From: Paenirhodobacter populi
GTDB lineage: Bacteria; Pseudomonadota; Alphaproteobacteria; Rhodobacterales; Rhodobacteraceae
DNA: 64,000 nucleotides
NCBI RefSeq assembly: GCF_004022215.1
Contig: NZ_SAUZ01000012.1
Coordinates: forward strand, 62,001-126,000
Direction of reading: 5' to 3'
The position numbers and the translations under genes were made by a program. Positions 6,938 to 53,655 of the stretch are shown here, piece after piece (the first letter of the stretch is position 1; each line of letters opens with the position of its first letter). The notes beneath the pieces are model-generated. The model did not search any database. It worked only from the letters and a program-made list of their open reading frames with translations, and had not been told where the DNA came from.

Positions 6938-6977
6938 CTGAGCGGGGCAGTGCCACCGGTTCGAACGTGCCGCGAAG
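6938..6977 (+). repeat. Structured transposase-interrupting repeat, copy 1
   Basis: Loop GCCACCGGTTCGA with flanks CTGA and GAAGG. The outer arms GCGGGGC and GTGCCGC pair imperfectly. It interrupts the IS3 transposase between MDALRTA and RRGKAD, adding a stop. More diverged than the other copies. Confidence 0.55.
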
Positions 6978-7161
6978 GCCGTCCTCAGTGCATCCATGAC
7001 CAGTGATGCATCCCGATCGGCCTTCATGGACCAGCCCAAGGCGCGTCGGGAAAACAGGTCCAGAACGACTGCGACTTAGAACCAGCCTTCCACAGTCCAG
7101 ATGTAGGTGAAGTCGGCCAGCCATTCTGGTTCCGCCGGTCTGCCTGAAAGTTCCGGTCGAG

Positions 7162-7203
7162 CCTCGCCGGTTCCTTAGAACCGGTGGCAGTCACCGGCTC
7201 GAT
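7162..7203 (-). repeat. Structured transposase-interrupting repeat, copy 2
   Basis: Loop GCCACCGGTTCTA. The outer arms GCCGGT and ACCGGC pair perfectly. It sits between SVIAD and LDRNFQAD of the IS3 transposase, where related proteins have only about two residues. Confidence 0.65.
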
Positions 7204-7328
7204 GTCGGCGATGACCGACCGTTCCCCATCGTCCCCGGGCTTTCCCCGACGCCTGGGCCGCGTTCGTAGGGCATTGATCCGCATCAACCGTTCGATGCGA
7301 TGAAGCTCACGCTCCGTTCGGAGCCGGG

Positions 7329-7371
7329 CCTTCGCGCCGTTGCTCGAACCAGTGGCGCAGCCGTGCCGATC
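7329..7371 (-). repeat. Structured transposase-interrupting repeat, copy 3
   Basis: Loop GCCACTGGTTCGA closed by TGC/GCA, with 3' flank GAAGG. The outer stem is weak. It lies in the N-terminal part of the IS3 remnant. Confidence 0.5.
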
Positions 7372-7590
7372 TCCCGCCATCGCGGAAGTGTAGCTCGCAG
7401 GCGAGTTTCGATACACCCTCGGCCCACTGCTGACGGATCTGCACAATGAATAGTCATATTGGCACGAGAATGCCTGTTTTTCATCAGGTGGCAGGTCTTC
7501 CGAGTGCATGACTCCGGCTGCGCTTGACGCTGGGCGGACTCCACGCTGTAGTCGACAGATCATATATGGCAACCACGCCCGTCTTCTGTA

Positions 7591-7635
7591 AGCCGCATTC
7601 GCGGTGACCAGTTGGCGGGTTTTTTTGTTTTGAGG
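7591..7635 (+). promoter_or_regulatory. Leader of the amide operon with T-run (possible antitermination site)
   Basis: Just before amiC lie a short GC-rich inverted repeat (CCGC-attc-GCGG, with a second GCGG after it) and a run of seven T at 7620-7626, then the ribosome-binding site GAGG. CCGC can pair with either GCGG, so two exclusive folds are possible. In Pseudomonas, AmiR acts by antitermination at such a leader terminator. The stems here are short, so this is only suggestive. Confidence 0.35.
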
Positions 7636-7639
7636 CTTA

Positions 7640-8734
7640 ATGAAGCGGCGCATCAACATCGGCCTGCTCTACTCGCGTTCCGGCAGCTACTCGCTGATTG
7701 CAGATGCCTGCCGGATGGGTGTGCTGACAGCGGTAGCCGAGGTGAACGGCGATCAAGCGCTGGACCTGACCTTCGTGCTGACCGAGCGCGACCCGGGTGG
7801 CAATATCGACCTATATGGGCCGATGTGCGAGGAAATCCTGCACGACGGCGGCGCCCGCCACGTTTTCGGTTGCGTGACCTCATGGAGCCGGAAAGAGGTC
7901 ATCCCGGTGCTGGAGAGGGCGGGCGGCACGCTCTGGTACAACCAACCCTATGAGGGGTTCGAGGCATCGGACCATGTGGTCTATAGCCACGCTTGCCCAA
8001 ACCAGCACCTATTGCCGCTGCTTGGTTGGACCTTCGGACGCTTCGGCCGGCGCGGCTACCTGACGGGATCGAACTACATCTGGGGCTGGGAAATGAACCG
8101 GCTGGCTCGCGAACTGATCGCCGATGCGGGCGGCGAGACGCTGGGCGAGCGGTATCTTCCCATCGGATCAACCGAGGTCGATCGGATGATCGACGAAATC
8201 CGTGCGACCCGGCCGGATTTCATTCTGAACAACCTGATAGGTGCCTCACAGTATCGTTTTCTGAACGCCTATGCCGAGCTTGGCCGACAGGATAAGCATT
8301 TCAGCCCGGATCGTTGCCCTATCCTGTCCTGCAACCTCACGGAATGCGAGTTGCATGCCGTCGGGCCAGTGGCCGAAGGGCTGGTGGCAGCCGGGCCGTA
8401 TTTCCGCGACGCGCCTGGCCCTGCCGGTGTCGGGCGGTTCGGCTCGTCGCACGAGGCAGCGGGCTATGCCGCGGTATGGCGGCTGGCGCGCCTTCTGGCC
8501 GGGCGGCCGGGAGCCGAGAACGCGCCGCTGTCGGAGTTGCTCGCCTCAACAGCCGCGGCCGAAACCGGTATCGACCCCAAGACCCACCACACCGTGCTGC
8601 CGGTGCTGATCGCGCAGGCGGAGGGCGGCAGCTTCCGCGTGGTCAAGGACTGCGGCAGCGTCGCTGGCGATCCCTATCTCACCCGGGGCAGGGAACTGGC
8701 CTTGCCCGCCCCGCGTCTGAGGGTGGTGCCATGA
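7640..8734 (+). CDS. amiC: AmiC-like amide sensor / negative regulator
   Basis: 364 residues of the periplasmic-binding-protein fold (Leu/Ile/Val and urea type), with no signal peptide: the protein starts directly with the first beta strand (INIGLLYSRSGSYSLIADAC). That is the hallmark of AmiC, the cytosolic ligand sensor that holds AmiR inactive until an amide binds. Downstream blocks such as SWSRKEVIPVLERAGG and LWYNQPYEGFE match AmiC/UrtA relatives. It overlaps amiR by four bases (ATGA) and heads an operon with an ABC importer and a formamidase. The nearby IS remnant ends only a short way upstream, so the original promoter may have been altered. Confidence 0.85.
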   Translation: MKRRINIGLLYSRSGSYSLIADACRMGVLTAVAEVNGDQALDLTFVLTERDPGGNIDLYGPMCEEILHDGGARHVFGCVTSWSRKEVIPVLERAGGTLWYNQPYEGFEASDHVVYSHACPNQHLLPLLGWTFGRFGRRGYLTGSNYIWGWEMNRLARELIADAGGETLGERYLPIGSTEVDRMIDEIRATRPDFILNNLIGASQYRFLNAYAELGRQDKHFSPDRCPILSCNLTECELHAVGPVAEGLVAAGPYFRDAPGPAGVGRFGSSHEAAGYAAVWRLARLLAGRPGAENAPLSELLASTAAAETGIDPKTHHTVLPVLIAQAEGGSFRVVKDCGSVAGDPYLTRGRELALPAPRLRVVP

Positions 8735-9339
8735 AACGACGGGTCCGCAGCCAGAACCTTGGCGGGGCGCGAGCGATCCTGTTGCACCGCCCGCACCCGA
8801 CCGTTCAGGCGCTGGAACGTCAGCTTGCCGCCATTGGCCTTGCGGTCGAGCAATGCTGGCCCGACCTGCCCGCATCGGCCATCGCCGCCGATTTCATCTT
8901 TTTCGATGCAGACCACGGCCACGACAGCCAGTTCCCGTGGGAGCCCGGCAATCCCCCCATGCCGATGATCGCCCTGATCGGGTCCGAGGCGCCGGGGCGC
9001 ATCGAATGGGCGCTGAATGCGGGCGCGGATGCGCAGCTTTTAAAACCCGTGGGGGACGGCGGCGCCTTTTCCGCCCTTCTGACCGCCCGCGCTGCCTTTG
9101 AAGCGCGGCAAGCGCTGGCGGCAGAAGTCGCGGCGCTGCGGCAGCGGCTGGATCAGCGGCAGACGGTGGTGCGTGCCGTGGCCATGCTGATGGGCCTCGG
9201 CAAGACCGAGGACGAAGCCTATGCCCAGTTGCGCGCCATGGCGATGGCCTGGCGGATCAGCTTCGAGGGCGCGGCAGAACGGGTTGTCGCTGCGCAGCGC
9301 GGCCCGGACACGCAGGTGCGGGGCGGACGGGATGACTGA
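8731..9339 (+). CDS. amiR: AmiR-like ANTAR antitermination regulator
   Basis: 202 residues. An N-terminal receiver-like domain without the usual phospho-acceptor context (FIFFDADHGHD), a coiled-coil (about residues 120-145, ALAAEVAALRQRLDQRQ), and a C-terminal ANTAR RNA-binding domain (RAVAMLMGLGKTEDEAYAQL with AMAWRISFEGAAERV). AmiR releases a leader terminator when amide-bound AmiC lets it go. It overlaps amiC at its start and dppC-like at its end. The target should be the amiC leader or a hairpin within the operon. Family assignment is firm; the RNA target is inferred. Confidence 0.85.
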   Translation: MKRRVRSQNLGGARAILLHRPHPTVQALERQLAAIGLAVEQCWPDLPASAIAADFIFFDADHGHDSQFPWEPGNPPMPMIALIGSEAPGRIEWALNAGADAQLLKPVGDGGAFSALLTARAAFEARQALAAEVAALRQRLDQRQTVVRAVAMLMGLGKTEDEAYAQLRAMAMAWRISFEGAAERVVAAQRGPDTQVRGGRDD

Positions 9340-10216
9340 CGTTACCGCCTCCGCCACCAAGGCCCCTGCCGGCGCGTTGCGCCGTCTGCTGCGGCGGAAA
9401 CTGGCGATCCTCGGGTTGGCCATCATCGCGGTCGTGGTGCTGGGCGCCTTGTTTGCGCCATGGATCGCTCCCTACGCGCCCGAGGAACAGCTGTTCGACG
9501 GGCTGACGCTGGAGGGCGCGCCGCTTGCCCCCGATGCGACCTTCATCTTTGGCACCGACCTTCTGGGGAGGGACCTTTTCAGCCGGATGCTCTACGGCGC
9601 GCAAACCTCGCTGGTGATCGGCGTGGTGGCGAATGGGATCGCTTTGGCCATCGGCACATTGATCGGCGTCACCGCGGGGTTCTTTCGCGGCTGGATCGGC
9701 GGCGGACTGATGCGGCTGACCGATTTGATGATGGCCTTCCCCGCGCTGCTGCTGGCGATCTGCCTTGCCGCGATCTTCACCCCCTCGCTCTGGATCGTGG
9801 CCATGGTGATCGCGCTGGTGAACTGGGTGCAGACGGCGCGCGTCATCTATACGGAAACCACGGCGCTTGCCGAACGCGAGTTCATCGCGGCCGAGCGGAC
9901 ACTCGGCGCGGGCACGGGGCGGATCCTCTTTCGCCACATCCTGCCGCATCTGGTGCCGACGGTCATCGTCTGGGGCACGCTGGGTATCTCGACGACCGTG
10001 CTTCTGGAGGCGACGCTTTCCTTCCTTGGCGTCGGGGTGCAGCCGCCTACGCCCAGCTGGGGCAACATCATCTTCGAGAACCAGACCTATTTCCAGGCGG
10101 CGCCCTGGCTGGTCTTCATTCCCGGTGCGGCGATCGTCCTGCTGGCCCTTGCCTTCAACCTCGTGGGCGACGCCCTGCGAGATGTGCTGGACCCGACCCA
10201 AAGGGGACGTGACTGA
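9332..10216 (+). CDS. ABC transporter permease, DppC/OppC type
   Basis: 294 residues from the ATG at 9332, which overlaps the amiR stop. The N-terminal DppC domain (RRLLRRKLAILGLAIIAVVV), the conserved FGTDLLGRDLFSRMLYG block and the permease EAA loop (ERTLGAGTGRILFRHILPHL) identify it. About six membrane spans. Genes of the same importer follow in the order DppB, binding protein, formamidase, fused ATPase. The importer probably brings in formamide, another amide or a small amide-bearing peptide, judged from the flanking sensor and hydrolase. The unusual DppC-before-DppB order is also seen in some nickel and amide clusters. Confidence 0.9.
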   Translation: MTDVTASATKAPAGALRRLLRRKLAILGLAIIAVVVLGALFAPWIAPYAPEEQLFDGLTLEGAPLAPDATFIFGTDLLGRDLFSRMLYGAQTSLVIGVVANGIALAIGTLIGVTAGFFRGWIGGGLMRLTDLMMAFPALLLAICLAAIFTPSLWIVAMVIALVNWVQTARVIYTETTALAEREFIAAERTLGAGTGRILFRHILPHLVPTVIVWGTLGISTTVLLEATLSFLGVGVQPPTPSWGNIIFENQTYFQAAPWLVFIPGAAIVLLALAFNLVGDALRDVLDPTQRGRD

Positions 10217-11136
10217 TGGCCGCCTATCTTGCCCGCCGCCTGATCCAGTCGGTCCTGATCCTTCTGGGCGTCAGCTTCATCACCTTCCTGCTGCTCTATG
10301 TCCTGCCGGCCGATCCGGTCCGCCAGATCGCGGGCCGCGCGGCCACCGCCCAAACGGTGGAGAATATCCGCCAGCAACTGGGCCTCGACCAGCCGTTCCT
10401 CGTGCAATACGGGCGGTATCTCGGAAACCTGCTGCACGGCGATCTTGGCCGCAGCTATCTGCAAAAGACCGATGTGGCCGAACTGATCTGGTCGCGCCTG
10501 CCTGCCTCGCTGCTGTTGATGGCGGGGGGCATCGCGTGCGAGCTGGTGCTCGGCCTGACTCTGGGCGTGATCGCCGCGCTGTGGCGGGGCCGCGCGCTGG
10601 ATCAGGGGCTGATGGTCGGCAGCTTTGTCGCCGTTTCGGCACCGCAGTTCGTAGTCGGACTGCTTCTCCTCTATGTCTTTGCGGTGCGGCTGGGGTGGTT
10701 TCCCATCGGCGGCTACGGCACATTCGCGCATCTGGTCCTGCCCGCGCTTACGCTGGGGATACTCGGATCGGGCTGGTATAGCCGCATGATGCGCTCCTCG
10801 ATGATCGAGGTGCTGCGCGCAGACTATATCCGCACGGCCCGCGCCAAGGGGCTGGACCGCGCCCGTGTCATCCTGCGCCATGCCCTGCCCAATGCGATCC
10901 TGCCCATCGTCGCCATGATCGGCATCGACATCGGTATCTTCATGGGCGGGATCGTCGTCGTCGAAAGCGTGTTCGGCTGGCCCGGCATGGGGCAGCTCGC
11001 CTGGCAGGCGATCCAGCGCGTCGACATCCCGATCATCATGGGCGTCACGCTGGTGTCTGCCACCGCAATCGTTCTGGGCAACCTGCTGGCCGATCTGATC
11101 GCGCCACTGGTCGACCCGCGCATCAAACTACGCTGA
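10216..11136 (+). CDS. ABC transporter permease, DppB/OppB type
   Basis: 306 residues. It starts on the last base of the previous stop codon (TGATG), so the two are translationally coupled. It begins with the classic MAAYLARRLIQSVLILLGVS first span, has QLGLDQPFLVQYGRYLGNLL in the periplasmic loop, and the EAA motif around RTARAKGLDRARVILRHAL. Inner-membrane partner of the DppC-type subunit. Confidence 0.9.
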   Translation: MAAYLARRLIQSVLILLGVSFITFLLLYVLPADPVRQIAGRAATAQTVENIRQQLGLDQPFLVQYGRYLGNLLHGDLGRSYLQKTDVAELIWSRLPASLLLMAGGIACELVLGLTLGVIAALWRGRALDQGLMVGSFVAVSAPQFVVGLLLLYVFAVRLGWFPIGGYGTFAHLVLPALTLGILGSGWYSRMMRSSMIEVLRADYIRTARAKGLDRARVILRHALPNAILPIVAMIGIDIGIFMGGIVVVESVFGWPGMGQLAWQAIQRVDIPIIMGVTLVSATAIVLGNLLADLIAPLVDPRIKLR

Positions 11137-11163
11137 ACAACAAAAACCGACAGGAGAGATAAG

Positions 11164-12774
11164 ATGAAACACTGGCTTGCCTCTACCGCGCTTGCGCTTT
11201 GCCTTGCCGTTCCGGCGCTGGCGCAGGACTATACGCCCGATCCGAACGCCAAACCCGGCGGGGCCATCGTGATCACCTACAAGGACGATGTGGCGACGCT
11301 TGACCCTGCCATCGGCTATGACTGGCAGAACTGGTCGATGATCAAGTCGATCTTCGACGGACTGATGGACTACGTCCCCGGCTCCACCGCCCTGCGCCCC
11401 GGTCTGGCCGAAAGCTATGACCTGTCAGAGGACGGGCTGACCTTCACCTTCCACCTGCGCCCGGGCGTCAAGTTCCACAACGGTCGCGAGATGACTGCCG
11501 AGGACGTGAAATATTCGCTGGACCGCGTCACCAACCCCGAAACGCAATCGCCCGGCGCGGGCTTCTTCGGTTCGATCGAAGGGTTCGAGAATGCGGGGCC
11601 GGACGGCCTCTCGGGCGTCAAGATCATCGATCCGCTGACGGTCGAGATCAAGCTGTCCCGGCCCGATGCGACCTTCCTGCATGTGATGGCGCTGAACTTC
11701 GCCTCGGTCGTGCCGAAAGAGGCGGTGGATGAATACGGCGCCGATTTCGGCAAGCATCCTGTCGGCACCGGCGCCTATTCGCTCGCCGAATGGACCATCG
11801 GGCAGCGTCTTGTCTTCGCCAGGAACGAGACCTACTGGCGCGCCGGCGTGCCCTATCTGGACCAGATCACCTTCGAGGTCGGGCAAGAGCCGGTCGTGGC
11901 CCTGCTTCGCCTGCAGAAGGGCGAGGTCGATGTGCCCGGCGACGGCATTCCGCCGGCGAAATTCACCGAAGTGATGGCCAACCCGGATGAGGCATCGCGC
12001 GTGGTCGAGGGCGGGCAGCTCCACACCGGCTATATCACCATGAACGTGACGCAGCCGCCCTTCGACAAGGTCGAGGTGCGTCGTGCGGTCAACATGGCGC
12101 TGAACAAGGAGCGGATCGTCCAGATCATCAACGGGCGCGCCGTGCCTGCGAACCAGCCGTTGCCGCCCTCGATGCCCGGCTATGCCAAGGACTACAAAGG
12201 CTATGCCCACGATCCCGAAGGGGCGAAGAAGCTGCTGGCCGACGCGGGATATCCCGACGGGTTCGAAACCGAGCTTTACGTGATGAACACGGACCCGAAC
12301 CCGCGGATCGCGCAGGCGATCCAGCAGGATCTGGCGGCCATCGGCATCAAGGCCTCGCTGCAGAACCTTGCGCAGGCCAACGTGATCGAGGCCGGCGGCG
12401 CGGGCACCGCGCCGATGGTCTGGTCGGGCGGCATGGGCTGGATCGCCGACTTCCCTGATCCGTCGAACTTCTATGGCCCGATCCTCGGCTGCGCGGGCGC
12501 GGGGGAGGGCGGCTGGAACTGGTCGAAATACTGCAACGAGGCGCTGGATGCCGAGGCGGTCAAGGCCGACAGCTTCAAGGACCCCTCGGATCCTGCGCGC
12601 CTTGCGATGTGGTCCGACATCTATGTGAAAATCATGGACGATGCCCCCTGGGCGCCGGTCTTCAACGAACAGCGCTATACGATGAAATCGCCCCGCATGG
12701 GCGGCGAGGATGCGCTCTATGTCGATCCGGTTTCGATCCCGATCAACTATGACTATGTTTTCATAAAGGAATAA
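11164..12774 (+). CDS. Periplasmic binding protein, family 5 (DppA/OppA)
   Basis: 536 residues with a clear signal peptide (MKHWLASTALALCLAVPALA, cut before QD). Family 5 landmarks are DGLMDYVPGSTALRPGLAES, the FTFHLRPGVKFHNGREMTAEDV block and GTGAYSLAEW. A ribosome-binding site (AGGAGAG) lies just before the ATG. It delivers the substrate to the DppB/DppC channel. Family 5 members bind peptides, nickel, glutathione or opine-like molecules; here the formamidase four bases downstream suggests an amide. Specificity cannot be read from sequence. Confidence 0.9.
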   Translation: MKHWLASTALALCLAVPALAQDYTPDPNAKPGGAIVITYKDDVATLDPAIGYDWQNWSMIKSIFDGLMDYVPGSTALRPGLAESYDLSEDGLTFTFHLRPGVKFHNGREMTAEDVKYSLDRVTNPETQSPGAGFFGSIEGFENAGPDGLSGVKIIDPLTVEIKLSRPDATFLHVMALNFASVVPKEAVDEYGADFGKHPVGTGAYSLAEWTIGQRLVFARNETYWRAGVPYLDQITFEVGQEPVVALLRLQKGEVDVPGDGIPPAKFTEVMANPDEASRVVEGGQLHTGYITMNVTQPPFDKVEVRRAVNMALNKERIVQIINGRAVPANQPLPPSMPGYAKDYKGYAHDPEGAKKLLADAGYPDGFETELYVMNTDPNPRIAQAIQQDLAAIGIKASLQNLAQANVIEAGGAGTAPMVWSGGMGWIADFPDPSNFYGPILGCAGAGEGGWNWSKYCNEALDAEAVKADSFKDPSDPARLAMWSDIYVKIMDDAPWAPVFNEQRYTMKSPRMGGEDALYVDPVSIPINYDYVFIKE

Positions 12775-12778
12775 GGCC

Positions 12779-13738
12779 ATGTGCAAGGCCTGCAACTATA
12801 CCATCCACGGCGCGCAGCATCACTTTGGCTGGGACAATTCATTTGTTCCGGTCGAAAGGGTGGCGCCGGGATCGACCATTCTCTTTCACTGTCACGATTC
12901 CTCGGCGGGCCAGCTTGGCCCGTCGTCGAAACTGGCCGATGTGGCGGCGCTGGACTTCGGCAAGATCAACCCGGTTTCCGGCCCGATCTTCGTTGATGGT
13001 GCCGAGCCGGGCGATGCGCTGAAGGTCACCATAGACAGCTTTGCTCCGCAGGCGGTTGCAGGGCGTGGGTGGGGATGGACCGCGAACATCCCGGGTTTCG
13101 GCCTTCTGGCCGACCAGTTCACCGATCCGTCGCTGATCGTCTGGGACTTTGATCCGGCAACGTTGGCGCCTGCTCTCTGGTCCAGTCAGGCGAAGATCCC
13201 GTTGAAGCCCTTTGCCGGCACAATCGGCTGCGCACCGGCCGAGCCGGGGCATCACTCGGTTGTCCCGCCCCGGCGGGTAGGCGGCAATCTTGACATCCGC
13301 GATCTGGCGGCGGGCACCACTCTCTACCTGCCGGTCGAGGTGGCGGGGGCGCTCTTCAGCGTTGGCGACACCCATGCCGCCCAAGGCGATGGAGAGGTCT
13401 GCGGCACGGCCATCGAAAGCCCGATGGATGTAGTCCTGAAGCTTGATCTGGTGAAGGGCGCCAATCTGAAACTGCCGCGCTTCACGACACCCGGGCCGGT
13501 CACCACCCATCTCGACGCCAAGGGCTATGAGGTCACGACCGGGATCGGTCCCGATTTGATGAGCGGCGCGCGCGATGCGGTGGCGGGGATGGTCGACCTT
13601 CTGACCGCCACGCACGGCATGTCGGCGGTCGAGGCCTATATGCTCTGTTCCACCTGCGGCGACCTGCGGATATCCGAGATCGTCGACATGCCAAACTGGG
13701 TGGTCAGCTTCTACTTCCCTCGCGCCGTTTTCGAATGA
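12779..13738 (+). CDS. fmdA: Acetamidase/formamidase
   Basis: 319 residues of the FmdA/AmdA family (Pfam FmdA_AmdA), which hydrolyses formamide or acetamide to ammonia and the acid. Characteristic blocks are VPVERVAPGSTILFHCHDSS near the N-terminus, GTIGCAPAEPGHHSVVPPR in mid-protein, GDTHAAQGDGEVCGTAIE, and the C-terminal EAYMLCSTCGDLRISEIVD. Cytosolic. It starts four bases after the binding-protein gene and overlaps the ABC ATPase gene by four. Its place inside a transporter operon headed by amiC-amiR makes it the likely catabolic enzyme for the imported amide. Family members from 300 to 450 residues are normal. Confidence 0.9.
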   Translation: MCKACNYTIHGAQHHFGWDNSFVPVERVAPGSTILFHCHDSSAGQLGPSSKLADVAALDFGKINPVSGPIFVDGAEPGDALKVTIDSFAPQAVAGRGWGWTANIPGFGLLADQFTDPSLIVWDFDPATLAPALWSSQAKIPLKPFAGTIGCAPAEPGHHSVVPPRRVGGNLDIRDLAAGTTLYLPVEVAGALFSVGDTHAAQGDGEVCGTAIESPMDVVLKLDLVKGANLKLPRFTTPGPVTTHLDAKGYEVTTGIGPDLMSGARDAVAGMVDLLTATHGMSAVEAYMLCSTCGDLRISEIVDMPNWVVSFYFPRAVFE

Positions 13739-15501
13739 CCGAGGGGAGGCCATCGGCAGGCGCAGGGGCGCCGGTTCTTTCGGTGAGGGGCCTGACCGTC
13801 TCGATCGGGCACAAGCCGCTGGTCGAGGGGCTGTCTTTCGATCTTGCCCGCGATGAAACCCTCGCCATCGTGGGCGAGAGCGGGTCGGGCAAGTCGATCA
13901 CCTCGCTGGCGGTTATGGGCCTGCTGCCCCCGCAGGTGCGCGCGACCGCCGGGCAGGTGCTGTTCGACGGCCGCGATCTGCTGGCCCTTCCCGAAAGCGC
14001 GCTGCGGCCCATCCGCGGTGGGCGTATCGCGATGATCTTTCAGGAGCCGATGACCAGCCTCAACCCTGTGATGACCGTGGGCGCGCAACTGGTCGAAGCC
14101 ATCACGGCGCATGAGCCGCTGCGGCGGGGCGAGGCACGCGCCCGTGCGGTTGCGGCGTTGAAATCGGTGCGGATCTCGCAGGCGGAACGACGGTTGGCGC
14201 AGTATCCGCACGAGTTGTCGGGCGGGATGCGCCAACGGGTGATGATCGCCATGGCGCTGGCGCTGAAACCCGATGTGCTGATCTGCGACGAGCCCACGAC
14301 CGCGCTGGATGTGACGGTTCAGCGCGAGGTGCTGGATCTGCTGCGTGACCTTCAGCGCCAGACCGGGACCGCGCTGATCCTGATCACGCATGACATGGGC
14401 GTTGTCGCCGAAATGGCAGACCGGGTGATCGTGATGAAATCCGGGCAGATGGTCGAGGGAGGCTCCATTGCCAGCATCTTCGCCGCGCCTCGCGCACAGT
14501 ATACCCGTGATCTTCTGGCGGCGGTGCCGCGGATGGGCGATGGCTCGGGCGCGATCCCGGTCGCCAAGGCGCCGCCGGTTGCGCGGCTGCATGACGTGCA
14601 GGTCGGCTTCGACATTCGGGGCGGTATCCTTCAGCGCGTGACCCACCGCGTCCATGCCGTCGAACATGTCAGCCTCGAGATCCTGCCGGGCGAGACCTTC
14701 GCAATCGTCGGCGAGAGCGGCTGCGGCAAGTCCACGCTTGCCAGGGCCATCGCTGGCCTTGTCCCCCATCAGGGGCATATCGAGGTCGCGGGAAAGCCAC
14801 TGGCGGGGCTGACGGTCGAGGGGCGGCGCGCCATTTGCCGCGACGTGCAGATGGTGTTTCAGGATCCGATGGCCGCGCTCGACCCCCGGATGCGCGTCGG
14901 CGATCTGGTGGCGGAGCCGCTGGTGATCCACGGGATCGGCAGCCCCATGGAACGCCGCGAGCGCACCGAAGACCTCTTTGACCGCGTGGGCCTGCCCCGC
15001 GACACACTGGACCGCTATCCGCACGAGTTCTCGGGCGGCCAGCGTCAGCGGATCTGCATCGCCCGAGCACTGGCCCTGAAGCCAAAGCTGATCATCTGCG
15101 ATGAAAGCGTCTCGGCCTTGGACGTTTCGGTCCAGGCCCGGGTGCTGGCGCTTCTGAACGAGCTGAAGGCCGAATTCGGGCTTTCTTATCTTTTCATCAG
15201 CCATGACATGGCGGTGGTGGAGAATATCGCCGATCGGGTTGGCGTCATGTATCTGGGTCAGATCGTCGAAACCGGTACCCGGGCGCAGGTGTTCGGCAAT
15301 CCGCAGCATCCTTACACCCGCCGTCTGATCGAGGCGGTGCCGGTTCCTGACCCAGCATATCGGCGTATGCCCGCAGCTCGGCTGACAGGAGAGGTGCCAA
15401 GCCCCATCCTTCCGGTGGGAGTGTCATCCGTTCGGGTCTCTCTAGCGGATATCGGGGGCGGCCATCTGGTCGCGATAGATGAAGGGGGACCGGGCCAATA
15501 G
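13735..15501 (+). CDS. Fused dipeptide-type ABC ATPase (DppD-DppF)
   Basis: 588 residues holding two complete ABC domains. First half: Walker [10 protein letters not shown] near 44, signature [15 protein letters not shown], Walker [13 protein letters not shown]. Second half: Walker [10 protein letters not shown] near 328, signature [15 protein letters not shown], Walker [14 protein letters not shown], where the usual DEPVS is DESVS. Each half ends with the oligopeptide-type C-terminal tail ([15 protein letters not shown]). Fusion of DppD and DppF in one chain is common in alphaproteobacteria. Last gene of the amide operon. The Pro-to-Ser change in the second Walker B is conservative. Confidence 0.9.
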
Positions 15502-15504
15502 CCT

Positions 15505-15623
15505 GTCCGGCACGCAGAAGAAGACCCGACTAGGTGTTTGATCCCATGGTGTGATGGTGCGATCCTTTCTCCGGAATGGCAGGAAGCATCATGGGCCAGG
15601 TTCGTCACGGGAGCGCCACAACC
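15505..15623 (+). mobile_element. IS481-family left-end fragment
   Basis: The start of an IS481-type transposase, MGQVRHGSATT (ATG at 15591), is preceded by non-coding sequence like the left end of such elements. It stops abruptly at about 15623, where a response-regulator remnant on the other strand begins. Only the first 11 codons remain. Recognition rests on memory of that conserved N-terminus. Confidence 0.55.
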
Positions 15624-17121: not shown

Positions 17122-17147
17122 ACCGCCACAGTCAAAGGTAGAAGACC

Positions 17148-33674: not shown

Positions 33675-33931
33675 GGGGCTGTTGAAGAAAGTCTATCTCC
33701 AGCAGGATGCCCAAGGCGAATCCATGCTGTTAGACTTCTGTCATGAGTAAACCTGAGCCTGCCCGCTACCGCACGACGAACTGGAAGTCTTGCAAATGAG
33801 CCATTGAGGCGCCACTGGTTCAAGCCTGATGGCGAATGCGCTGAAGCGACGAGGCTCCCTGCTGATCTGACTGGACAAGGGATATGGTCTGGCGAACTGC
33901 GAGAGCCGGGCGCAATGGCCGACCGCCTGTC
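33675..33931 (+). mobile_element. IS5-family 5' fragment, interrupted by a structured repeat
   Basis: A left-end-like sequence (GGGGCTGTTGAAGAAAGTCT) is followed by the start of an IS5 transposase: MSKPEPARYRTTNW at 33744, then the ~42-bp repeat, then NALKRRGSLL in another frame and ARAGRNGRPPV. It ends at about 33931, exactly where ftrA coding sequence begins. So the element inserted into ftrA and most of it was then deleted. Confidence 0.75.
33796..33838 (+). repeat. Structured transposase-interrupting repeat, copy 4
   Basis: ATGA-GCCATT ... GATGGC-GAATG with inner pair GGC/GCC closing the loop GCCACTGGTTCAA. It interrupts the IS5 transposase between RTTNW and NALKRRG. Confidence 0.75.
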
Positions 33932-41030: not shown

Positions 41031-41036
41031 GAAGCG

Positions 41037-45928: not shown

Positions 45929-46638
45929 CGCCAGGCACTTTTGAACTACTGGGCTTCGGACCGCAGGGATGGGGATTCCTGCTGCTGAAAGCCGCCGGAA
46001 CGACCATCGCCGCCGCGATCTGCGGCTTCTTTCTGGGAAGCCTGTTCGGGCTTCTCGGCGCGGCCCTGAAACTTTCGTCCCTGCTCGCCCCGAGGATGAT
46101 CGGCCAGTTCTACACCACGATCTTCCGTGGCGTGCCGGAGATTCTCATCGTCTATCTGCTGTTCTTCGGCGGAAGCGTCGCCGTGACGCAGGTGATGAAC
46201 CTTGGCGGCTTTCCCGGATTTTACTCGCTGCCGGTGTTCGTCATCGGCGTGATCGCCATCGGCCTCGTCTCCGGCGCCTATCAGACCGAGGCCTACCGGT
46301 CGGCCTTCCTGCGCCTCAATCGCGGCCAGATCGAGGCGGGCGCCGCCTGCGGCATGCCGCGGCACCTGCTGCTGCGCCGGATCATCGCACCGCAGACCCT
46401 GCGCTTCGCGCTGCCCGCGCTCGGCAACATCTGGCAATCGGTGCTCAAGGAAACCTCGCTGCTTTCCGTCATCGGATTGACCGAGCTGTTGCGTCAGGCC
46501 GGCACGGCGGCCGGTTCCACCCGCCAGCCGCTGCTGTTCTACGGGATCGCCGCCATCCTGTTCCTGATCATCGGACGCATGACCGGCGCGGCCCTCGGCG
46601 GGCTGGAACGCCATCTCGCAAAACCGTGGAGCCGCTAG
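45925..46638 (+). CDS. ABC permease, amino-acid/opine type (HisQ/OccQ-like)
   Basis: 237 residues, about five membrane spans. Family landmarks FYTTIFRGVPEILIVYLLFF and the EAA loop EAGAACGMPRHLLLRRIIAP. It overlaps the oxidase gene by four bases, so uptake and oxidation genes are one transcript. Pairs with the next permease. Confidence 0.9.
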   Translation: MTPGTFELLGFGPQGWGFLLLKAAGTTIAAAICGFFLGSLFGLLGAALKLSSLLAPRMIGQFYTTIFRGVPEILIVYLLFFGGSVAVTQVMNLGGFPGFYSLPVFVIGVIAIGLVSGAYQTEAYRSAFLRLNRGQIEAGAACGMPRHLLLRRIIAPQTLRFALPALGNIWQSVLKETSLLSVIGLTELLRQAGTAAGSTRQPLLFYGIAAILFLIIGRMTGAALGGLERHLAKPWSR

Positions 46639-46640
46639 TC

Positions 46641-47333
46641 ATGGATTGGCCCTTTCTCATCGACGTCGCGCGCCAGCTCCTGTCGGGCGTTCCGCTCACC
46701 CTGCAACTCGCCGGTTCCGGCCTTCTGGCGGGGGGCGTGCTGGCCGTGCTGGTCGCCTCCGCCGCCGCCAGCGGGATCGCCCCCCTGCGGTGGATCGCGC
46801 TCGCCCATGTCGAGGTGTTTCGCGGCACCCCGCTGCTGGTGCAGATCTTTCTCATCTACTACGGCCTCGGCCAGATCCCCGAGCTGCGGGACTCCTTCCT
46901 CTGGCCGTTCCTGCGCGAGCCCTACTGGTGCGCGATCCTGGCGCTGGCGCTGAACACCTCGGCCTATACCGCCGAGATCATCCGGGGCGCGCTGCAGGCC
47001 GTACCGGAAGGTGAGGTCGAGGCCGCGCGCGCTGCCGGCATGTCGGGGGTCCTGCTGCGCCGCCGGATCACCTGGCCCATCGCCCTGCGCCACGGCATCG
47101 CCCTTTACGGCAGCGAGGTCATCCTCATGGTCAAGGCGACCTCGCTCGCCAGCGTGATCACCGTGGCCGAGGTCACCAACATCTCCTACCGGCTGATTTC
47201 CTCGACCTATCGCGCGCTTGAGGTCTTCGTCGTCGCCGGTGCGATCTATCTGGCGCTGACCTTCCTCGTCAGCCTGGCCGTCGCCCTGGTCGAACGGCGG
47301 CTGAACGCCCATCACGCCCATCGCCGCACCTGA
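46641..47333 (+). CDS. ABC permease, amino-acid/opine type (HisM/OccM-like)
   Basis: 230 residues from the ATG at 46641, two bases after the previous stop. Landmarks EVFRGTPLLVQIFLIYYGLG and EAARAAGMSGVLLRRRITWP. About five spans. Longer readings in this frame have no family support ahead of this ATG. Confidence 0.9.
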   Translation: MDWPFLIDVARQLLSGVPLTLQLAGSGLLAGGVLAVLVASAAASGIAPLRWIALAHVEVFRGTPLLVQIFLIYYGLGQIPELRDSFLWPFLREPYWCAILALALNTSAYTAEIIRGALQAVPEGEVEAARAAGMSGVLLRRRITWPIALRHGIALYGSEVILMVKATSLASVITVAEVTNISYRLISSTYRALEVFVVAGAIYLALTFLVSLAVALVERRLNAHHAHRRT

Positions 47334-47357
47334 ACCCCCCACAGGATTGGAAATGCC

Positions 47358-48158
47358 ATGACTTCCCCCATGCAAGCAAACACCGCGAATACGAGCCCGG
47401 TCATCGCGACCGAGGGCCTGCGCAAGCACTTCGGAACCGTCGAGGTCCTGAAAGGGATAGATTTCAGCGCGAGGGATGGCGAGGTCATCTCGATCCTCGG
47501 CGCCTCGGGTTCGGGAAAATCGACATTCCTGCGCTGCCTCAATCTTCTGGAAATGCCGTCGGCGGGCCGGCTGCACATCTTTGGCGAAGAGGTCGGGCTG
47601 CGGGCCGGCAAGGACAGGCTGCGGATCGCCAATCGCCGGCAGGTCGATCGTCTGCGCACGCAGGTGGCGATGGTCTTCCAGAACTTCTGCCTCTGGAGCC
47701 ACATGACCGTGCTCGAAAACCTGATGGAGGCGCCCGTCCACGTGCAGGGGCGCAGCCGGGCCGAGATCCGGGAAGAGGCGGAGGCCATGCTGGCGCGCGT
47801 CGGCCTGACCGCGCGGCGCGATGCCTATCCGGCGCAGCTTTCCGGCGGGCAGCAGCAGCGCGCCGCGATCGCGCGGGCGCTGGTCATGAAGCCGCGGGTG
47901 CTGCTGTTCGACGAACCGACCTCCGCGCTCGACCCGGAACTGGTCGGCGAGGTGCTGAAGGTCATGCGCGATCTGGCGGACGAAGGGCGGACGATGCTCA
48001 TCGTGACGCATGAGATGGCCTTCGCGCGCGACGTCTCAAGCCGGATCCTGTTTCTCGACCAGGGGCAGATCGGCGCCGAGGGCACGCCGCAACAGCTCTT
48101 CGGTGGCGGCCACAACCCGAGGTTCGACCAGTTCGTTTCCCGGTTCAATCAGGGCTGA
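47358..48158 (+). CDS. ABC ATPase, amino-acid/opine type (HisP/OccP-like)
   Basis: 266 residues. Walker [10 protein letters not shown] near 51, the polar-amino-acid family insert around [20 protein letters not shown], signature [15 protein letters not shown] near 160, Walker [17 protein letters not shown] near 180 and H-loop [12 protein letters not shown]. Complete. Last gene of the opine-type cluster; the IS graveyard begins just beyond. Confidence 0.9.
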
Positions 48159-48326
48159 AGCGATGATTTGCCGTCGCGTCGCTGGATGATGATTGCGTCG
48201 CATGCGGTGGCTGCCGGAGCGACGCTGGAAGAGATTTTCCAGCTTGTCCCTGCTCCGCTGAAGGCGGAAAGCCGGATAGATCCCGGCGGGACAGCAACCC
48301 GATGCAAGGGCTGCAACAGCGGCTTG

Positions 48327-48927
48327 TCAGATCACTATCTGGAGCGAATGTCGGTATCGGTAGCTGCACGCCCCCGCAACTACCGTTTCAGGCATGCCCG
48401 CGGATAACACCGCGGGTTTTGTCGTTTTGGACGCCTTTCCAATAGCTTGCCGATCGGTCCATTCGAGGATCGTCCGCAGTTCGCCATGCAATGTGGCGTA
48501 GATTTCCCACATTCTGGGCCGGAGTGAGCACGATCTTCTCGATCAGCATCCGCAAAGCCTCGGCCGCCTGCGGCCGTTCGTCGGGTCGGGCCAGCGCTCC
48601 GGTGAGGACCGCGACCATCTTCGCATAGACCGCCGATGCGCTCGGTAGGATGTCCGGCCCATCATCCGGCCCATCGGCCAAAAGCTCCGCCAGTTCCTTC
48701 TTGCGCGCTTCCAGCTCCGTCATCTCGCCCTTCATGCTCTCATGGAGCATGCCGGCCTTGATCGCCTCGATGATGCCCCTGATCTGCTTCCCGACCTTCA
48801 CCAGTTCCGCCTTCCAGGCGTCGCCGTTCGAGTGGCGCTCCCGGTTCAGCCGGTTGGTCTCCTCGGCATAGGCGCGCATGGCCTCGGCGGCGATCTCGGG
48901 CGACATCATCCTGTTCTTGAGGCCGGC
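48327..48927 (-). pseudogene. Large serine recombinase, C-terminal fragment
   Basis: Minus-strand sequence [60 protein letters not shown] and [19 protein letters not shown] is the coiled-coil C-terminal part of resolvase/invertase-type large serine recombinases. A shift at about 48510 moves the last part ([20 protein letters not shown]) to another frame. The IS3 element at 48928 cuts off everything upstream. In the current DNA the IS3 transposase frame runs on into this fragment, making an artificial chimera. Confidence 0.75.
48397..48428 (+). terminator. Rho-independent terminator
   Basis: CCCGCGG (48397-48403), loop ATAACA, CCGCGGG (48410-48416), then TTTTGTCGTTTT. It points along the plus strand, 238 bp after the ABC ATPase stop. 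It may end the opine operon. Confidence 0.65.
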
Positions 48928-49379
48928 TGACGTGCCACTGAACCTTCTTCCAGCGGCGATTAGAGCCTCGTCTGTTACTGTCACGCCCTGAGGCGCGGGA
49001 TGAGCAACCGGATTGGCGGTTGCGGCGAGAAGCCCGGCGAAGGCCGCCGGGGTTTGATAGCCACGCGAGGAGTGGGGCCTCGTCGTATTGGGATCCTCCA
49101 CCCATTCGACGATGGCACTGCGGGCATGGGCGAGGCCGGAGAACAGGATCTCGTTCAAGAGCTCATCGCGCATCCGCCCATTGAAGCTCTCGACAGAGCC
49201 ATTCTGCATCGGCTTGCCGGGCGCGATATCGTGCCGCTCGACACGATGATCCTTCGACCAGGTCAGGATCGCGTTCGAAGTGAGCTCCGTGCTGTGATCG
49301 GACACGATCATCCCCGGTTTGCTGCGACGATCGATCAGGTCGGTCAGTTTCCGAGCAACACGCCTGCCGGAGATCGAGG

Positions 49380-49422
49380 GTGAGCCATCGAGCCGCCATC
49401 GGTTCGAGGCCGATGGTAAACG
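49380..49422 (+). repeat. Structured transposase-interrupting repeat, copy 5
   Basis: GTGA-g-CCATCG-A-GCC-loop GCCATCGGTTCGA-GGC-CGATGG. A nine-pair hairpin with a single bulged A. It separates ECLAAIP from SISGRRVA of the IS3 transposase. Confidence 0.75.
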
Positions 49423-49470
49423 GGATTGCGGCAAGACATTCCCGCGTCACGTCATCGACGATGTTCAGCA

Positions 49471-49513
49471 ATGAGCCGTTGAGGCGCCATTGGTGCGCGC
49501 CTAACGGCGAATG
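49471..49513 (+). repeat. Structured transposase-interrupting repeat, copy 6
   Basis: ATGA-GCCGTT-GA-GGC-loop GCCATTGGTGCGC-GCC-T-AACGGC-GAATG. Both stems perfect. It separates ACGRRF from LNIVDDV of the IS3 transposase. Confidence 0.75.
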
Positions 49514-50411
49514 AACCGCCGCCCGCAGGCAAACTGGTCATGCACGAAGTCCGGCGACCATCGAGCGTTTGCTTTTGCCTCAACCAGGATCGGAGCCCAT
49601 GTGCCGACGGCTCGCCGTCGGGCTCGACGCTTGCGAACCGTCAGTCCTTCCTCCCGGTAGAGACGATAGAGGCGATTGACCCCCGATGGTTCGCCCTCCC
49701 GCCGCAGCAGGATGAACCGCTGACGATAACCGAAGCGGCGCCGCGCGTTGGCGAGATCCCCTGGCGCGCAGCTCCGTCTCTGGCGGACGGCACGACTGGT
49801 AGCGCACCCTCTTCCGGTCCGCTCCGGCGATGGAACAAGCCCGCCGTTCTGACAGGCCCATGACGGCCCGCAGATGCGCGACGGCTTCGCGCTTCACGGC
49901 AGGCCCTGCCATTTTTGACAGAAGCTTCTTAAGCGCCGCAGCGTCCAGCATCTGGCCGGCCAACAGCTTCTTAAGATTCGTGTTCTCGTCTTCCAGAGCG
50001 TTCAGGCGCTTGGCGTCGGACACGTCCATCCCGCCATACTTCGCCTTCCCATTATACAGCGTCGCCTAGCTGATCCCGTGCTTGCGGGCCAGCTCGCCTG
50101 CCTTCGCACCGGCCTCGTACTCCCGCAGCACCGCGATGATCTGCTCTTCCGTAAATCGTTTCCGCTTCATCTGTTCGTCCTCCAATCAAGACCGGACTCC
50201 AATCTCAGTTGGAGGAAAATTCAGTGGCTCGTCAAAAGTGTTTGAACCGGCATAGAAAACTGCCTCCTTACACTGATGGTCATGATGCCCCCGTGGTCAT
50301 CGGGGGGGTGCAGTGCGGGATGTTGGTTGTGGAGATGACTGCGAAGATCCGTCGGGCGTATTTCCAGGAGAAGAAGACGATCAAGCAGATATGCCGGGAG
50401 TTGCGGATCTC

Positions 50412-50458
50412 GTGGAGTGCGGCGTGAGCCGCCACCGGTTCAAGGCCACGCCGAACGG
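50412..50458 (+). repeat. Structured transposase-interrupting repeat, copy 7
   Basis: CGGCGT-GA-GCC-loop GCCACCGGTTCAA-GGC-C-ACGCCG-AACGG. Both stems perfect with sequences unlike other copies. It lies in istA between ELRISW and VRRVIRSG. Confidence 0.75.
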
Positions 50459-50876
50459 TGCGGAGAGTGATCCGATCCGGTGTGACGGAACTGACCTATG
50501 AACGGACAATCCAGCCGCTGCCGAAGATCGGCCCCTGGAAAACAAGCTCGACGGGATGCTGGCGGCAAACGCCCTGAAACCGAAGCGCGAGCGCCTGACC
50601 CTGATCAGGGTTTTCGAGGAACTCCGGTCCCTCGGCTATGACGGTGGCTACGATGCTGTCCGGCGCTACGCGGGCTCGTGGTCCAAGGAGGAACGGGAGG
50701 CTTCGGCCGTCGCCTATGTGCCGTTGATCTTCGATCCGGGCGAGGCTTATCAGTTCGACTGGAGCCACGAGATCGTGGTGATCGATGGGGCGACCACCAC
50801 AGTGAAGGTTGCGCATGTCCGCCTCTGCCACAGCCGGATGCTGTTTGTCCGGGCCTATCCGCGCGAGACGCAGGAG

Positions 50877-50915
50877 CCTCAGCCATCGGGCTCGGACCGA
50901 TGGCGCTACGATGGC
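50877..50915 (-). repeat. Structured transposase-interrupting repeat, copy 8
   Basis: On the minus strand: GCCATCG ... loop GCCATCGGTCCGA ... CGATGGC-TGAGG; seven-pair outer stem. It lies in istA between ETQE and the FD-HDKAFAFF segment. Confidence 0.7.
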
Positions 50916-50985
50916 TTCGATCTTCGACGCCATGACAAGGCCTTCGCCTTCTTCGGGGGTGCCTGCGCTCGGGGGATCTACGACA

Positions 50986-51027
50986 GTGAGGCTGGGCCGC
51001 CATGGGTCTGAGGCCAAGCCGAACGAA
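50986..51027 (+). repeat. Structured transposase-interrupting repeat, copy 9
   Basis: GTGA-GGCTGG-GCC-loop GCCATGGGTCTGA-GGC-CAAGCC-GAACG. The outer stem has one mismatch, the inner pair is perfect. It lies in istA between GIYD and KTAADTIFVG. Confidence 0.7.
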
Positions 51028-51114
51028 AACGGCGGCGGATACGATTTTCGTTGGCCGCGACCGCGCCTACAATCGCCGTTTCCAGCAGATGTGCGGGCGC
51101 TATCTGGTCGATCC

Positions 51115-51155
51115 GCCGTCCATTGGGCTTGAACCAATGGCGCCTCGATGAACGG
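51115..51155 (-). repeat. Structured transposase-interrupting repeat, copy 10
   Basis: On the minus strand: CCGTTCAT-CGA-GGC-loop GCCATTGGTTCAA-GCC-CA-ATGGACGG. Eight-pair outer stem with one G-T pair. It lies in istA between LVDP and CTPASGWEKG. Confidence 0.75.
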
Positions 51156-52554
51156 CCCTGCACCCCTGCCTCTGGCTGGGAGAAGGGACAGGTCAAGAAC
51201 CAGGTCGGCGTTGTCCGGCGGCGGTTCTTCGTGTCTCGACCGAAGTTCAAAAGCCACGCCGAACTCAGTGCGTGGCTCAAGGATCGCTGTGTTGCCTGGG
51301 CCAGATCCCATCCGCACCCCGAGCTGCGCGAGCGCACGATCTGGGAGGTGTTCCAGGACGAGCGTGCGAGTCTGGTGCCCTATGTCGGTCCCTTCGATGG
51401 CTTCCATGCCGTGCCGGCCTCGGTCTCCAAGACCTGTCTCGTCCGGTTCGACAAGAACCGCTACTCGGTGGACGGTCGCGCTGTAGGTCGACCGGTCGAG
51501 ATCCGCGCATATGCCGAGCGTCGAGTTCTGGCAGGACGGCAAGATCGTCGGGCAGCACGAACGCGCCTTCGGTCGCGACAAGGCCATCTACGATCCGCTG
51601 CACTATATTCCGGTTCCGGCCCGCAAGCCCGGCGCCCTTCGGAACGGAGCTCCCTTCAAGGAATGGGAACTGCCGCCAGCGATCAGGCGCGTTCAGCGCA
51701 AGCTGGGCAAGGTGCTGGACGCGATGGGCCAGCGGAAGCTCTACGGCATGAAAGCCGCCTACGATGAGATCATCGCCACGGCAGTGAAGCGACAGCACGA
51801 GCCGCAGCAGATCGTCGGCGACCTGCTGAACGCGGAGATCAGCGAGAAGCAGGCACGCTCGATCAAATACCAGATGACGATCGCACGGCTTCCCTTGGCC
51901 AAGGAGATCGACGAGTTCGCCTTCGAGGAAACGCCCGTGAACGAGACGCTGGTGCGAGATCTGGCCAGCGGGGAGTTCCTCGACCAGCAGCGCAACATCG
52001 TGCTGATCGGCGGGACCGGCACCGGGAAGTCCCACCTTGCCGTCAGCATCGCCCGGTCGTGTATCCGGCGTGGAAAACGAGGCCGCTTCTTCAACGTCGT
52101 GGACCTGGTGAACAAGCTCGATGCTGAAGCCCGCGCCGACCGCCAGGGACGCACCGCGGATCTGCGGTGCCGGCTCGACTTCCTGATCCTCGACGAACTC
52201 GGCTATCTGCCCTTCGCCCAGACCGGCGGGCAACTGCTGTTCCTCCTCATCAGCCGCCTCTACGAGCGCATTTCCATCATCGTGACGACAAACCTCGACT
52301 TCGGCGAATGGCCGTCGGTCTTCGGCGACGCCAAGATGACCACCGCTCTCCTCGATCGCCTCACCCATCACTGCGACAGTGTCGAGACCGGCAACGAGAG
52401 CTGGCGCTTCAAGATCAGGGAATAACCGAAACCCCGCTGGCCCGATACGGCTGCGCTGTGGGGAGGCTACACCGCATCGGGTCAGCTACCTGTGCGACAA
52501 GCAGGGGGTCATTTTTGGACGCCTATAGGGGGTTCCGTGCCGATGACGTAATTG

Positions 52555-53364
52555 CTTCGGTCATTTCCTGAAACGTCCAATGCGAGCAGGCTTTCGGTTC
52601 GAATGAACAAAAGCGATGAAAACGACGCGCGCGGCCTGGCCGAGCTGGTACGGATCGGCTGGTGTCGCGAGGTGGCGGTGAAGAGCGCGGCCAGTCAACA
52701 GGTGCGTTCCCTTCTTGTGGCCCGGTCACGGCTGGTTGCCGTCCGATGCGATCTGGAAAACCAGGTGCGGTCGATGCTCAAGGAATACGGCCTGATCTTT
52801 CCACGCTCGGTCGCCGGGTAGTTCCAGCGTCGCGTCATCGAATTGACGGATGAAGGTCACGTGTTGTGGTGCGTTTTACAACCGCTGCTTTCCGTCCATG
52901 CCCACGTCTGTGGTGAACTCGGGGGGGGGGCGATCAGCAGGTCCGTCACTTGGCCAGAGGGGACGAGACGACTCGCCGATTGATGAGCGTTCCCGGCATC
53001 GGAATGGTGACTGCCCTGACATTCCGGCACACCATTGATGATCCCGCCCGCTTTCGGAGTGCCACGACCGTCGGCGCCTATCTCGGCCTCACCCCGCGGC
53101 GAAAGCAACTGGGGCAAACGGATACAAAGGGCCATGTCTCACGCTGCGGAGATCGGTTGCTGCGCACCTATCTGTTCGAGGCGGCGAGCGTTCTGCTTCA
53201 CCGGACAAGGCAATGGTGCGGGCAAAGCCTGGGGTCTGCGGTTGGCCAGACGAAACGGCATGAAGAAAGCCCAGGTCGCGGTGGCGCGAAAACTGGCGGT
53301 CATCCCCCACTGCATCTGGGTCGACGGCACCTCGTTTGAATGGGGAAGAGAAATGCCGGCGTAA
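52555..53364 (+). pseudogene. IS110-family transposase, truncated and frameshifted
   Basis: Blocks in order: [163 protein letters not shown]. This is an IS110 (DEDD) transposase lacking its N-terminal third. There is a stop at about 52820 and shifts at a run of ten G (about 52921-52930) and near 53218. Confidence 0.8.
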
Positions 53365-53374
53365 CCCATCAAAG

Positions 53375-53655
53375 TCCAACCCCGAGATCGCAGGGCTGAA
53401 GCCAGGCCTGTGATGTCCCCACATTCGCCATGGGCCTTGAACCCGTGGCGGCACCATGGCTCATCCCGCAGCAGAATGACATGGTCGAGCGCGTGATCCG
53501 GACGCTGAAAGAGTAATGCGTCCATCGCCAACGCATCGACAGCATCCGGCATGCGACCCGCGCTATCGGTGACTGGATCAGCTTCTAAAACAACCGCCGC
53601 CCTCACCAGGCGCTTGCAATGCGCACGCCTGCCGAGGCATTCAGATTGGCCGCTT
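53375..53655 (+). pseudogene. IS3-family transposase C-terminal fragment
   Basis: GLKPGL, then a structured repeat, then PQQNDMVERVIRTLKE, CVHRQRIDSIRHATRAIGDW, NNRRPHQALAMRTPAEAF and RLAA stop. This is the end of an IS3-type OrfB, different from the element at 48.9-50.2 kb. Two in-frame stops. Confidence 0.75.
53422..53464 (-). repeat. Structured transposase-interrupting repeat, copy 11
   Basis: On the minus strand: ATGA-GCCATGG-T-GCC-loop GCCACGGGTTCAA-GGC-CCATGGC-GAATG. Ten pairs, one bulge. It lies between CPH and PQQNDMVERV of the IS3 fragment. Confidence 0.75.

Follow-up and report, generated by a model that had tools for sequence, protein, structure and literature searches.

Small palindromic repeats are common in bacteria, and those repetitive extragenic palindromes (REPs) of the GTAG type that are linked to RAYT genes go by the name of REPINs; movement of such repeats has rarely been caught. 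Here we analyze a stretch of 64,000 nucleotides from Paenirhodobacter populi (contig NZ_SAUZ01000012.1, positions 62,001 to 126,000; the whole stretch is referred to as the window), in which a hairpin repeat of about 42-44 nt recurs, together with the relatives of this hairpin in other genomes. The nearest described elements are the Rickettsia palindromic elements (RPEs) and the CGTC REPs, and the hairpin fails their rules of length, loop and stem. As PMC2229807 and PMC10969869 describe them, RPEs are small palindromic insertions of alphaproteobacteria, 105-146 bp long, often in frame in protein genes (varied metabolic ones) and with no known mobiliser. The original prediction named them as the nearest idea, which is fair, given also that two hairpin copies lie in frame; length, layout and host genes nevertheless differ, since the hairpin has a near-constant loop and covarying arms, often sits in transposases, replaces 5-6 bp and is mostly out of frame. 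CGTC REPs, the nearest relatives, likewise lack a known or dedicated transposase and are small palindromes found mostly in alphaproteobacteria, with a stem of 8-9 bp, complementary AT in its first two positions and a loop of 4-5, according to Di Nocera 2013 (PMC3733652). An intergenic subtype of our hairpin resembles them, whereas the hairpin in general has a loop of 13, arms without the starting AT pairs and a location mostly within insertion sequences (IS). The GTAG REPs that accompany RAYT are, in the same paper (PMC3733652), non-autonomous hairpins with a conserved tag, a likeness offset by the absence of the GTAG tag from our element and of PF01797 matches from 18 genomes of the genus. 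Finally, the many short frame-breaking inserts of Magnusiomyces mitochondria, which are skipped by translational bypassing (PMC5009743), recall the hairpins, which, unlike them, occur in both orientations and also in decaying genes, and for which bypass would be unlikely. We argue below, from sequence comparison, that the hairpins probably belong to a mobile element, miniature and palindromic, whose moving form would be a folded single strand and whose landing places are often transposons.

The original prediction missed that the hairpins are insertions, which mostly replace 5-6 bp of an IS gene, and that identical ones recur at unrelated sites. That prediction would have fallen had its segments proved to be normal parts of transposase genes, and this was checked and is not the case: flank-to-flank comparison finds homologous transposase genes, in IS copies lacking the segment, that mostly have 5 or 6 nt where the filled copy has about 42-44. 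Such empty partners exist for 57 of 136 elements, and for 120 of 219 catalogued elements in a larger set. The clearest case is provided by two IS5 copies of the same genome, on contigs C40 and C21, which are identical at 1039 of 1059 aligned bases. The copy on C40 carries a hairpin at codon 173, with 42 nt in place of GCCCCG, and the copy on C21 carries a different hairpin in reverse orientation at codon 233, with 42 nt in place of six; each lacks the hairpin of the other, and both genes are open over 325 codons. No target site duplication is seen at the filled and empty sites, the 5-6 bp being replaced instead, which also separates the hairpin from a classical miniature inverted-repeat transposable element. 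In six loci one copy is nested in the loop of an older one, and the un-nested form is seen in L034 and L075. Copies with a net gain of 36 nt stay in frame and those with +37 and +38 break it; in-frame insertion into an open gene is found in two IS5 copies (L238 and L259, 325 aa), and out-of-frame insertion prevails among the other copies for which an empty partner exists. When 30 IS5 loci were fetched by protein only, 11 held covariance-model hits at E<=0.001. For 32 IS5 copies (28 tips once duplicates were removed), a tree suggested several gains at or near one site; it was set aside, because its label required no more than TGAGCCA in the columns around that site.

On the motif strand, a typical copy opens with N1-Y2-G-A, followed by an arm of 7 nt, a single linker base and 3 nt; after the loop GCCAYNGGTYCRA come another 3 nt, the opposite arm, likewise of 7 nt, and G-A-R-N1'-G. 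Folding often adds GCC/GGU pairs within the loop. A G-A/G-A step lies between the outer pair and the arm in most copies (G-A follows the first two bases in 153 of 190 with distinct flanks), and copies without it (window copy 51114 and the intergenic subtype) have a paired base there. A covariance model was built from 15 copies, rows that had been chosen for their pairing, and its hits mostly measure 40-45 nt. Across 136 of them (119 distinct rows, aligned to the model), 92.4% of cells pair, and the covariation score is 0.645; shuffling the partners lowers it to 0.161, and slid structures never exceed 0.079. Because this alignment is fitted to the model, a freer test based on a pattern matters more. 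There, left arm and loop were fixed and the left first base and the right half were left free, which yielded 106 hits with distinct flanks. At least six of the seven arm pairs form in 81 of these at the usual offset and in 101 at the best of four offsets, five hits having five or fewer, and pairing is perfect (7/7) in 64 of 106, against 23.2 with shuffled partners. Within the 81 hits, the two free arm positions pair in 79 (TA 64, GC 15, other 2) and in 74 plus three wobble (TA 45, CG 23, GC 6, TG 3, other 4), the outermost N1-N1' pair forms in 76 (GC 53, AT 13, CG 10; two wobble, three other), and the inner positions are Watson-Crick in 77 (plus two wobble) and 78. Covariation of arms, inner stem and outermost pair thus holds even in hits whose right half had not been constrained by the pattern, and selection on the fold is the likeliest cause. 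The original prediction was right that the covariation is real. However, since the hairpins are insertions and identical ones occur at unrelated sites, much of it reflects divergence between mobile lineages rather than selection at each locus, and the folded form may be RNA or single-stranded DNA (ssDNA).

The copies themselves also bear marks of movement. Of 224 distinct 39-mers, 16 recur without change at unrelated sites, which number at least two and at most five for each of them, and 12 of the 27 cores of 38 nt that are present at two or more flanks occur, unchanged, with two or more end types. Throughout the core set N1-N1' is Watson-Crick in 145 of 179, T.G in 26 and other in 8. The two ends of the element therefore appear to be reset together at each insertion with the 38-nt core staying identical, and ends that match but vary would be accounted for if insertion involved copying one of them from its partner. 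The idea that N1 is taken from the replaced target bases was rejected, as 75 filled/empty pairs yielded no simple rule; the signals that appear at -4, at gap base 1 and at +1, with z up to 5.6, are confounded because sites recur and because of one end type.

The hosts are transposase genes of several families, entered in both orientations. Among 25 open frames lying over empty sites, all 12 that were scanned match transposase domains (DDE_Tnp_1, rve/HTH_21, Y2_Tnp, DUF772 and IS66 being represented), one of them below the Pfam cut-off. Fragments beside pattern hits, where they match anything, mostly match transposase domains as well, with a few others (among them ABC_tran, BPD_transp_2 and GLUCM-like_C); most match nothing, because picking the longest open frame often means picking a wrong one. 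A search with 18 transposase queries places 126 of 176 elements of the NNGA type within 100 nt of a match, as against 159 of 2482 control positions, and so do 15 of 43 other elements. With respect to the host gene, 19 copies are sense and 23 antisense (counted over 42 rows assigned with confidence among 116 analysable elements, with several rows sharing sites), and this mixture argues against an action confined to the host mRNA.

How such an element might move can be outlined as follows. A folded single strand is favored as the moving form because the fold is kept as the arms change, orientation is irrelevant, the RAYT domain was not found and reverse transcriptases do not track the copies; of the two kinds of strand, ssDNA would be more likely than RNA, insertion being blind to orientation and no reverse transcriptase tracking copies. 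If the fold rather than the sequence of the arms is what is recognised, as we propose, drift in the arms would be tolerated wherever pairing is preserved. Entry into DNA may proceed by strand exchange or by template switching that skips 5-6 nt, transposon DNA would be the preferred or best-tolerated landing place, and the in-frame (+36) copies would leave a transposase of nearly normal length. Mobilisation by RAYT was rejected, PF01797 being found in none of the 18 genus genomes by a search that matches 5 of 14 control genomes. A reverse transcriptase was rejected as mobiliser as well: PF00078 occurs in 9 of the 18 genomes, does not track copy number, and is not found in G016, G009 and G011, which carry 23, 13 and 8 hairpins.

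Several observations weigh against this proposal. The searches for RAYT and reverse transcriptase domains delivered no mobilising gene, and yet G010 and G015 contain reverse transcriptase domains, as does G000, whose single one has a stop. One of five covariation measures, further pair types, gives 36 against 33.9 with shuffled partners, a value reached in 97 of 500 shuffles. The link to transposons has limits as well, since the 18 queries came from the same loci, so that the enrichment is not independent, since a transposase match is missing for 50 of the 176 elements of the NNGA type and for 28 of the 43 others, and since a subtype with GTCG..CGACG ends sits mostly between genes; part of the link could stem from survival in dispensable DNA. 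Codon phase is uneven, with phase 1 in 14 of 19 sense and phase 2 in 14 of 23 antisense copies (rows partly at shared sites), and is left unexplained by frame-blind insertion. Moreover, hairpins at the same site diverge by 9.0% where their flanks diverge by 21.9% (24 pairs at 75-80% flank identity, most of these loci having been picked by hairpin similarity and many partners, L206-L237, fetched by the same pattern), and a dead insertion should not diverge more slowly than its flanks. Among the few pairs that were not selected for the compared hairpin, L075:2862/L179 has 0 differences in 43 positions and L119:1968/L175 has 2 in 42; the window copy at 50877 and L148 form another.

Frame-shifted genes that show few changes, conservation in Azospirillum and the uneven phase would also fit a hairpin that, like a mini-intron or a translational bypass element, is cut out of the message or passed over by the ribosome, so that the transposases bearing it still work. 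We consider this unlikely. It draws on 4 of 24 same-site pairs, in which a frame-shifting hairpin is bordered on both sides by sequence where nonsynonymous codon changes amount to no more than half the synonymous ones (7:18 and 3:18 per flank in the Azospirillum pair L162/L181, 13:49 and 12:46 in L191/L193, 3:14 and 9:38 in L132/L198, and 2:7 and 3:15 in L033/L030), on the uneven phase, and on a second Azospirillum paralogue that retains the hairpin at 43 of 43 positions at 86% flank identity. However, copies occur in both orientations, L191/L193 and L033/L030 being antisense; the other 20 pairs fall short of such ratios, many of them with indels; and a low rate of amino-acid change may predate the insertion. 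The N half of the Azospirillum gene has one stop each in L162 and L137, such that two of the three copies with a full-length N half carry a stop there, and L278 retains 23 residues of it and L279 none. Of the long open IS5 genes sampled, L238 and L259 carry the hairpin in frame (+36), and a third, L260, has a model hit and aligns in another frame around the hairpin. A bolder version, in which the hairpins are neutralised after transcription or precisely excised from the DNA, so that they would be bacterial mini-introns or bypass elements colonising transposons whose transposases still work with one or several of them, and their ends would point to foldback-templated insertion, strikes us as rather unlikely; we know of no description of a foldback-templated insertion mechanism of this kind.

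It is quite improbable that the hairpin is simply a member of the CGTC-REP/RPE superfamily of palindromic repeats. It does share with that superfamily its alphaproteobacterial hosts, its palindromic form, the want of a known transposase and some in-frame copies, and the intergenic subtype, read backwards, begins with CGTC; the IS-borne copies, for their part, mostly have CGTTC, CATTC or CCTTC at this end (104 of 153). Nonetheless, the arm usually begins with a G-C pair (91 of 119 rows) followed by C-G (95 of 119), where the CGTC REPs start their shorter-looped stems with A-T pairs, and the length given for RPEs is far from that of the hairpin. That the segments are normal transposase parts, or owe their likeness to shared ancestry with no constraint on the fold, is next to impossible in our judgement: several copies do occupy the same site in related IS, but the empty homologues, the identical 39-mers at unrelated sites and the covariation oppose it, and the C40/C21 pair of IS5 copies speaks decisively against normal transposase parts. 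A mobile palindrome that moves as a folded single strand thus stays our preferred explanation. As to whether such an element has been described before, we agree with the original prediction, which knew of none: Rfam gives no match at gathering thresholds on the window and none at E<=1 on 49300-49600, and searches of the open-licence PMC literature listed no paper whose title and abstract beginning describe it, an absence that is weak because only that literature was covered. No tRNA or known RNA identity was found for the hairpin, and a hammerhead-like core was dropped as a candidate, the CTGANGA motif of hammerheads not being seen in the copies looked at.

The hairpin is abundant in its own genome, where the model finds 36 copies at E<=0.001 and where counting the exact loop gives 40, as opposed to 6 when the pattern is reversed. 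Model matches occur in 20 of 61 genomes (the own one included), all from the same family, and in none of 24 genomes from other families of the class; under stricter filters, at least 104 of 248 genomes of the same bacterial family carry hits. A pattern search of named genomes gave at least 112 stretches. Among the 80 matches listed, three have Azospirillum titles (L137, L162, L181) and one an Enemella title, and nearly all the others bear names that we take to be Rhodobacteraceae or unplaced alphaproteobacteria. The stretch titled Enemella evansiae (L203) is the same DNA as L124, from genome G019 of the window's own family, with flanks 100% identical, and its title or assembly may be wrong. 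As regards carriage by phages, the viral contigs yielded one stretch, L268 of IMG/VR, with a match to the hairpin. The GTCG..CGACG subtype, which ends in GTCG, GTTG or GCCG and CG and has the same loop, is represented by L086-L102, L104, L105, L072, L073, L115 and L125; it lies mostly outside IS, flanked by CGGGG- and GGGC..CCCC-like sequence, with several copies between open frames that point at each other.

In the window itself, all eleven segments of the original prediction are present, and the model recovers every one, at 25.2-62.5 bits. Five of them belonged to its training set, and the six outside it are marked as untrained below. The loop, which was said to be shared, is exact in seven of the eleven, with one mismatch at 7162 and 50877 and two at 49471 and 50986, and of the flanks given as RTGA and GAANG the right one actually reads GA-R-N', its N' being the pairing partner of the base that opens the element. 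Chance was ruled out as the source of the loop sequence, GCCAYNGGTTCRA occurring 14 times at up to one mismatch against 1.72 expected and none of 100 shuffles reaching 14; five of these 14 matches (21213, 22107, 23482, 26631 and 55692) have no model hit at E<=0.1. RNA folding compared with shuffles gives z +1.33 for the copy at 7329 and z +0.24 for that at 6938, no better than chance for either, and for the other nine z lies between -1.4 and -3.0 in six and below -3.2 in three. The best fold of the copy at 7161 differs from the proposed one, its left arm pairing with the loop. On these grounds eight window copies are convincing, and those at 6938, 7161 and 7329 are diverged.

Transposase matches cover 6.6% of the window, and nine of the eleven copies are found no more than 150 nt away from one. 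On the left, the diverged copy at 6938..6978 (plus strand, CTGA..GAAGG type, untrained, 28.7 bits) adjoins an IS3-like remnant at 6118-7165, and that at 7161..7202 (minus strand, TCGAGCCGGTG..GAACCGGCGAGG type, untrained, 26.7 bits) has a same-site homologue in L120, with flanks 82% identical and a hairpin 12% different. The most diverged, at 7329..7370 (minus strand, untrained, 25.2 bits, E 0.003), has no transposase match within 150 nt and is doubtful as a genuine member of the family. The copy at 33796..33838 (plus strand, ATGA..GAATG, training set, 62.3 bits) lies within an IS5-like transposase remnant, in which the protein match at 33743-33931 holds four stops, and has empty sites in L016, L032 and L047, the net gain being +37/38.

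The remaining seven copies fall in a cluster of rve/IS3-, IS21- and IS110-type transposase remnants at 48391..53654, recognised from tblastn blocks at 48391-50096, 51012-51764 and 52917-53654 and from Pfam. Two of them occupy the same rve-type transposase region: that at 49380..49422 (plus strand, GTGA..AAACG, training set, 62.5 bits), where the open reading frame 48388-49434 matches rve_3, has a same-site homologue in L201 and an empty site in L172, and that at 49471..49513 (plus strand, ATGA..GAATG, training set, 56.1 bits), antisense to the transposase, has empty sites in L223 and L227. For the copy at 50417..50457 (plus strand, arm CGGCGTG/CACGCCG, untrained, 44.9 bits), none of the 18 queries matches a transposase less than 150 nt away. 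Near an IS21-type remnant lie the copies at 50877..50919 (minus strand, training set, 52.4 bits), whose same-site homologue in L148, at 82% flank identity, was chosen independently of that hairpin, and at 50986..51025 (plus strand, GTGAGGCTGG..CCAAGCCGAACG, untrained, 30.5 bits). The copy at 51114..51156 (minus strand, GCCGTTCATCG..CAATGGACGGCG, untrained, 39.5 bits), in which a paired base replaces the tandem G.A, lies inside an IS21-type open frame (51012-51764) that matches Mu-transpos_C_2. The last, at 53422..53464 (minus strand, ATGA..GAATG, training set, 62.5 bits), sits at an IS3-like transposase remnant; L030 and L033 have this hairpin too and agree with the window on one side of it (53417-53686), not on the other. 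Empty sites (CAATG/CAGTG) are known for L030 and L033, not for the window copy itself.

Other palindromic inserts were met in the same surroundings. A second family in the same IS5 genes, with a ACAGTCCNNNGGACTGT core and ends near ATGAGG and CCCGACGA, has nine sites in the own genome against none for the reversed control (L024:3786, L069:1883, L020:175 and L019:1475 are among the loci). A third insert, of about 47 nt, has the same GTGA..GAAC ends as the hairpin and a different inside, and is found at one IS5 site in L069, L107 and L110 (three copies, two genomes). Further inserts, CGTCGGG-CGATCCTTCC..GGAAGGATCG-CTGATCC, occur in L017, L019, L020 and L022, and since the variant in L019 has other arms, their stems may covary too.

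Taken together, the many filled and empty sites, among them a pair of transposons that are 98% identical, make both the insertion rule, in which 5-6 bp are taken out and about 42-44 put in, and the covarying fold directly testable. A parasite of transposons present in several IS families would be a new layer of interaction among mobile DNAs.

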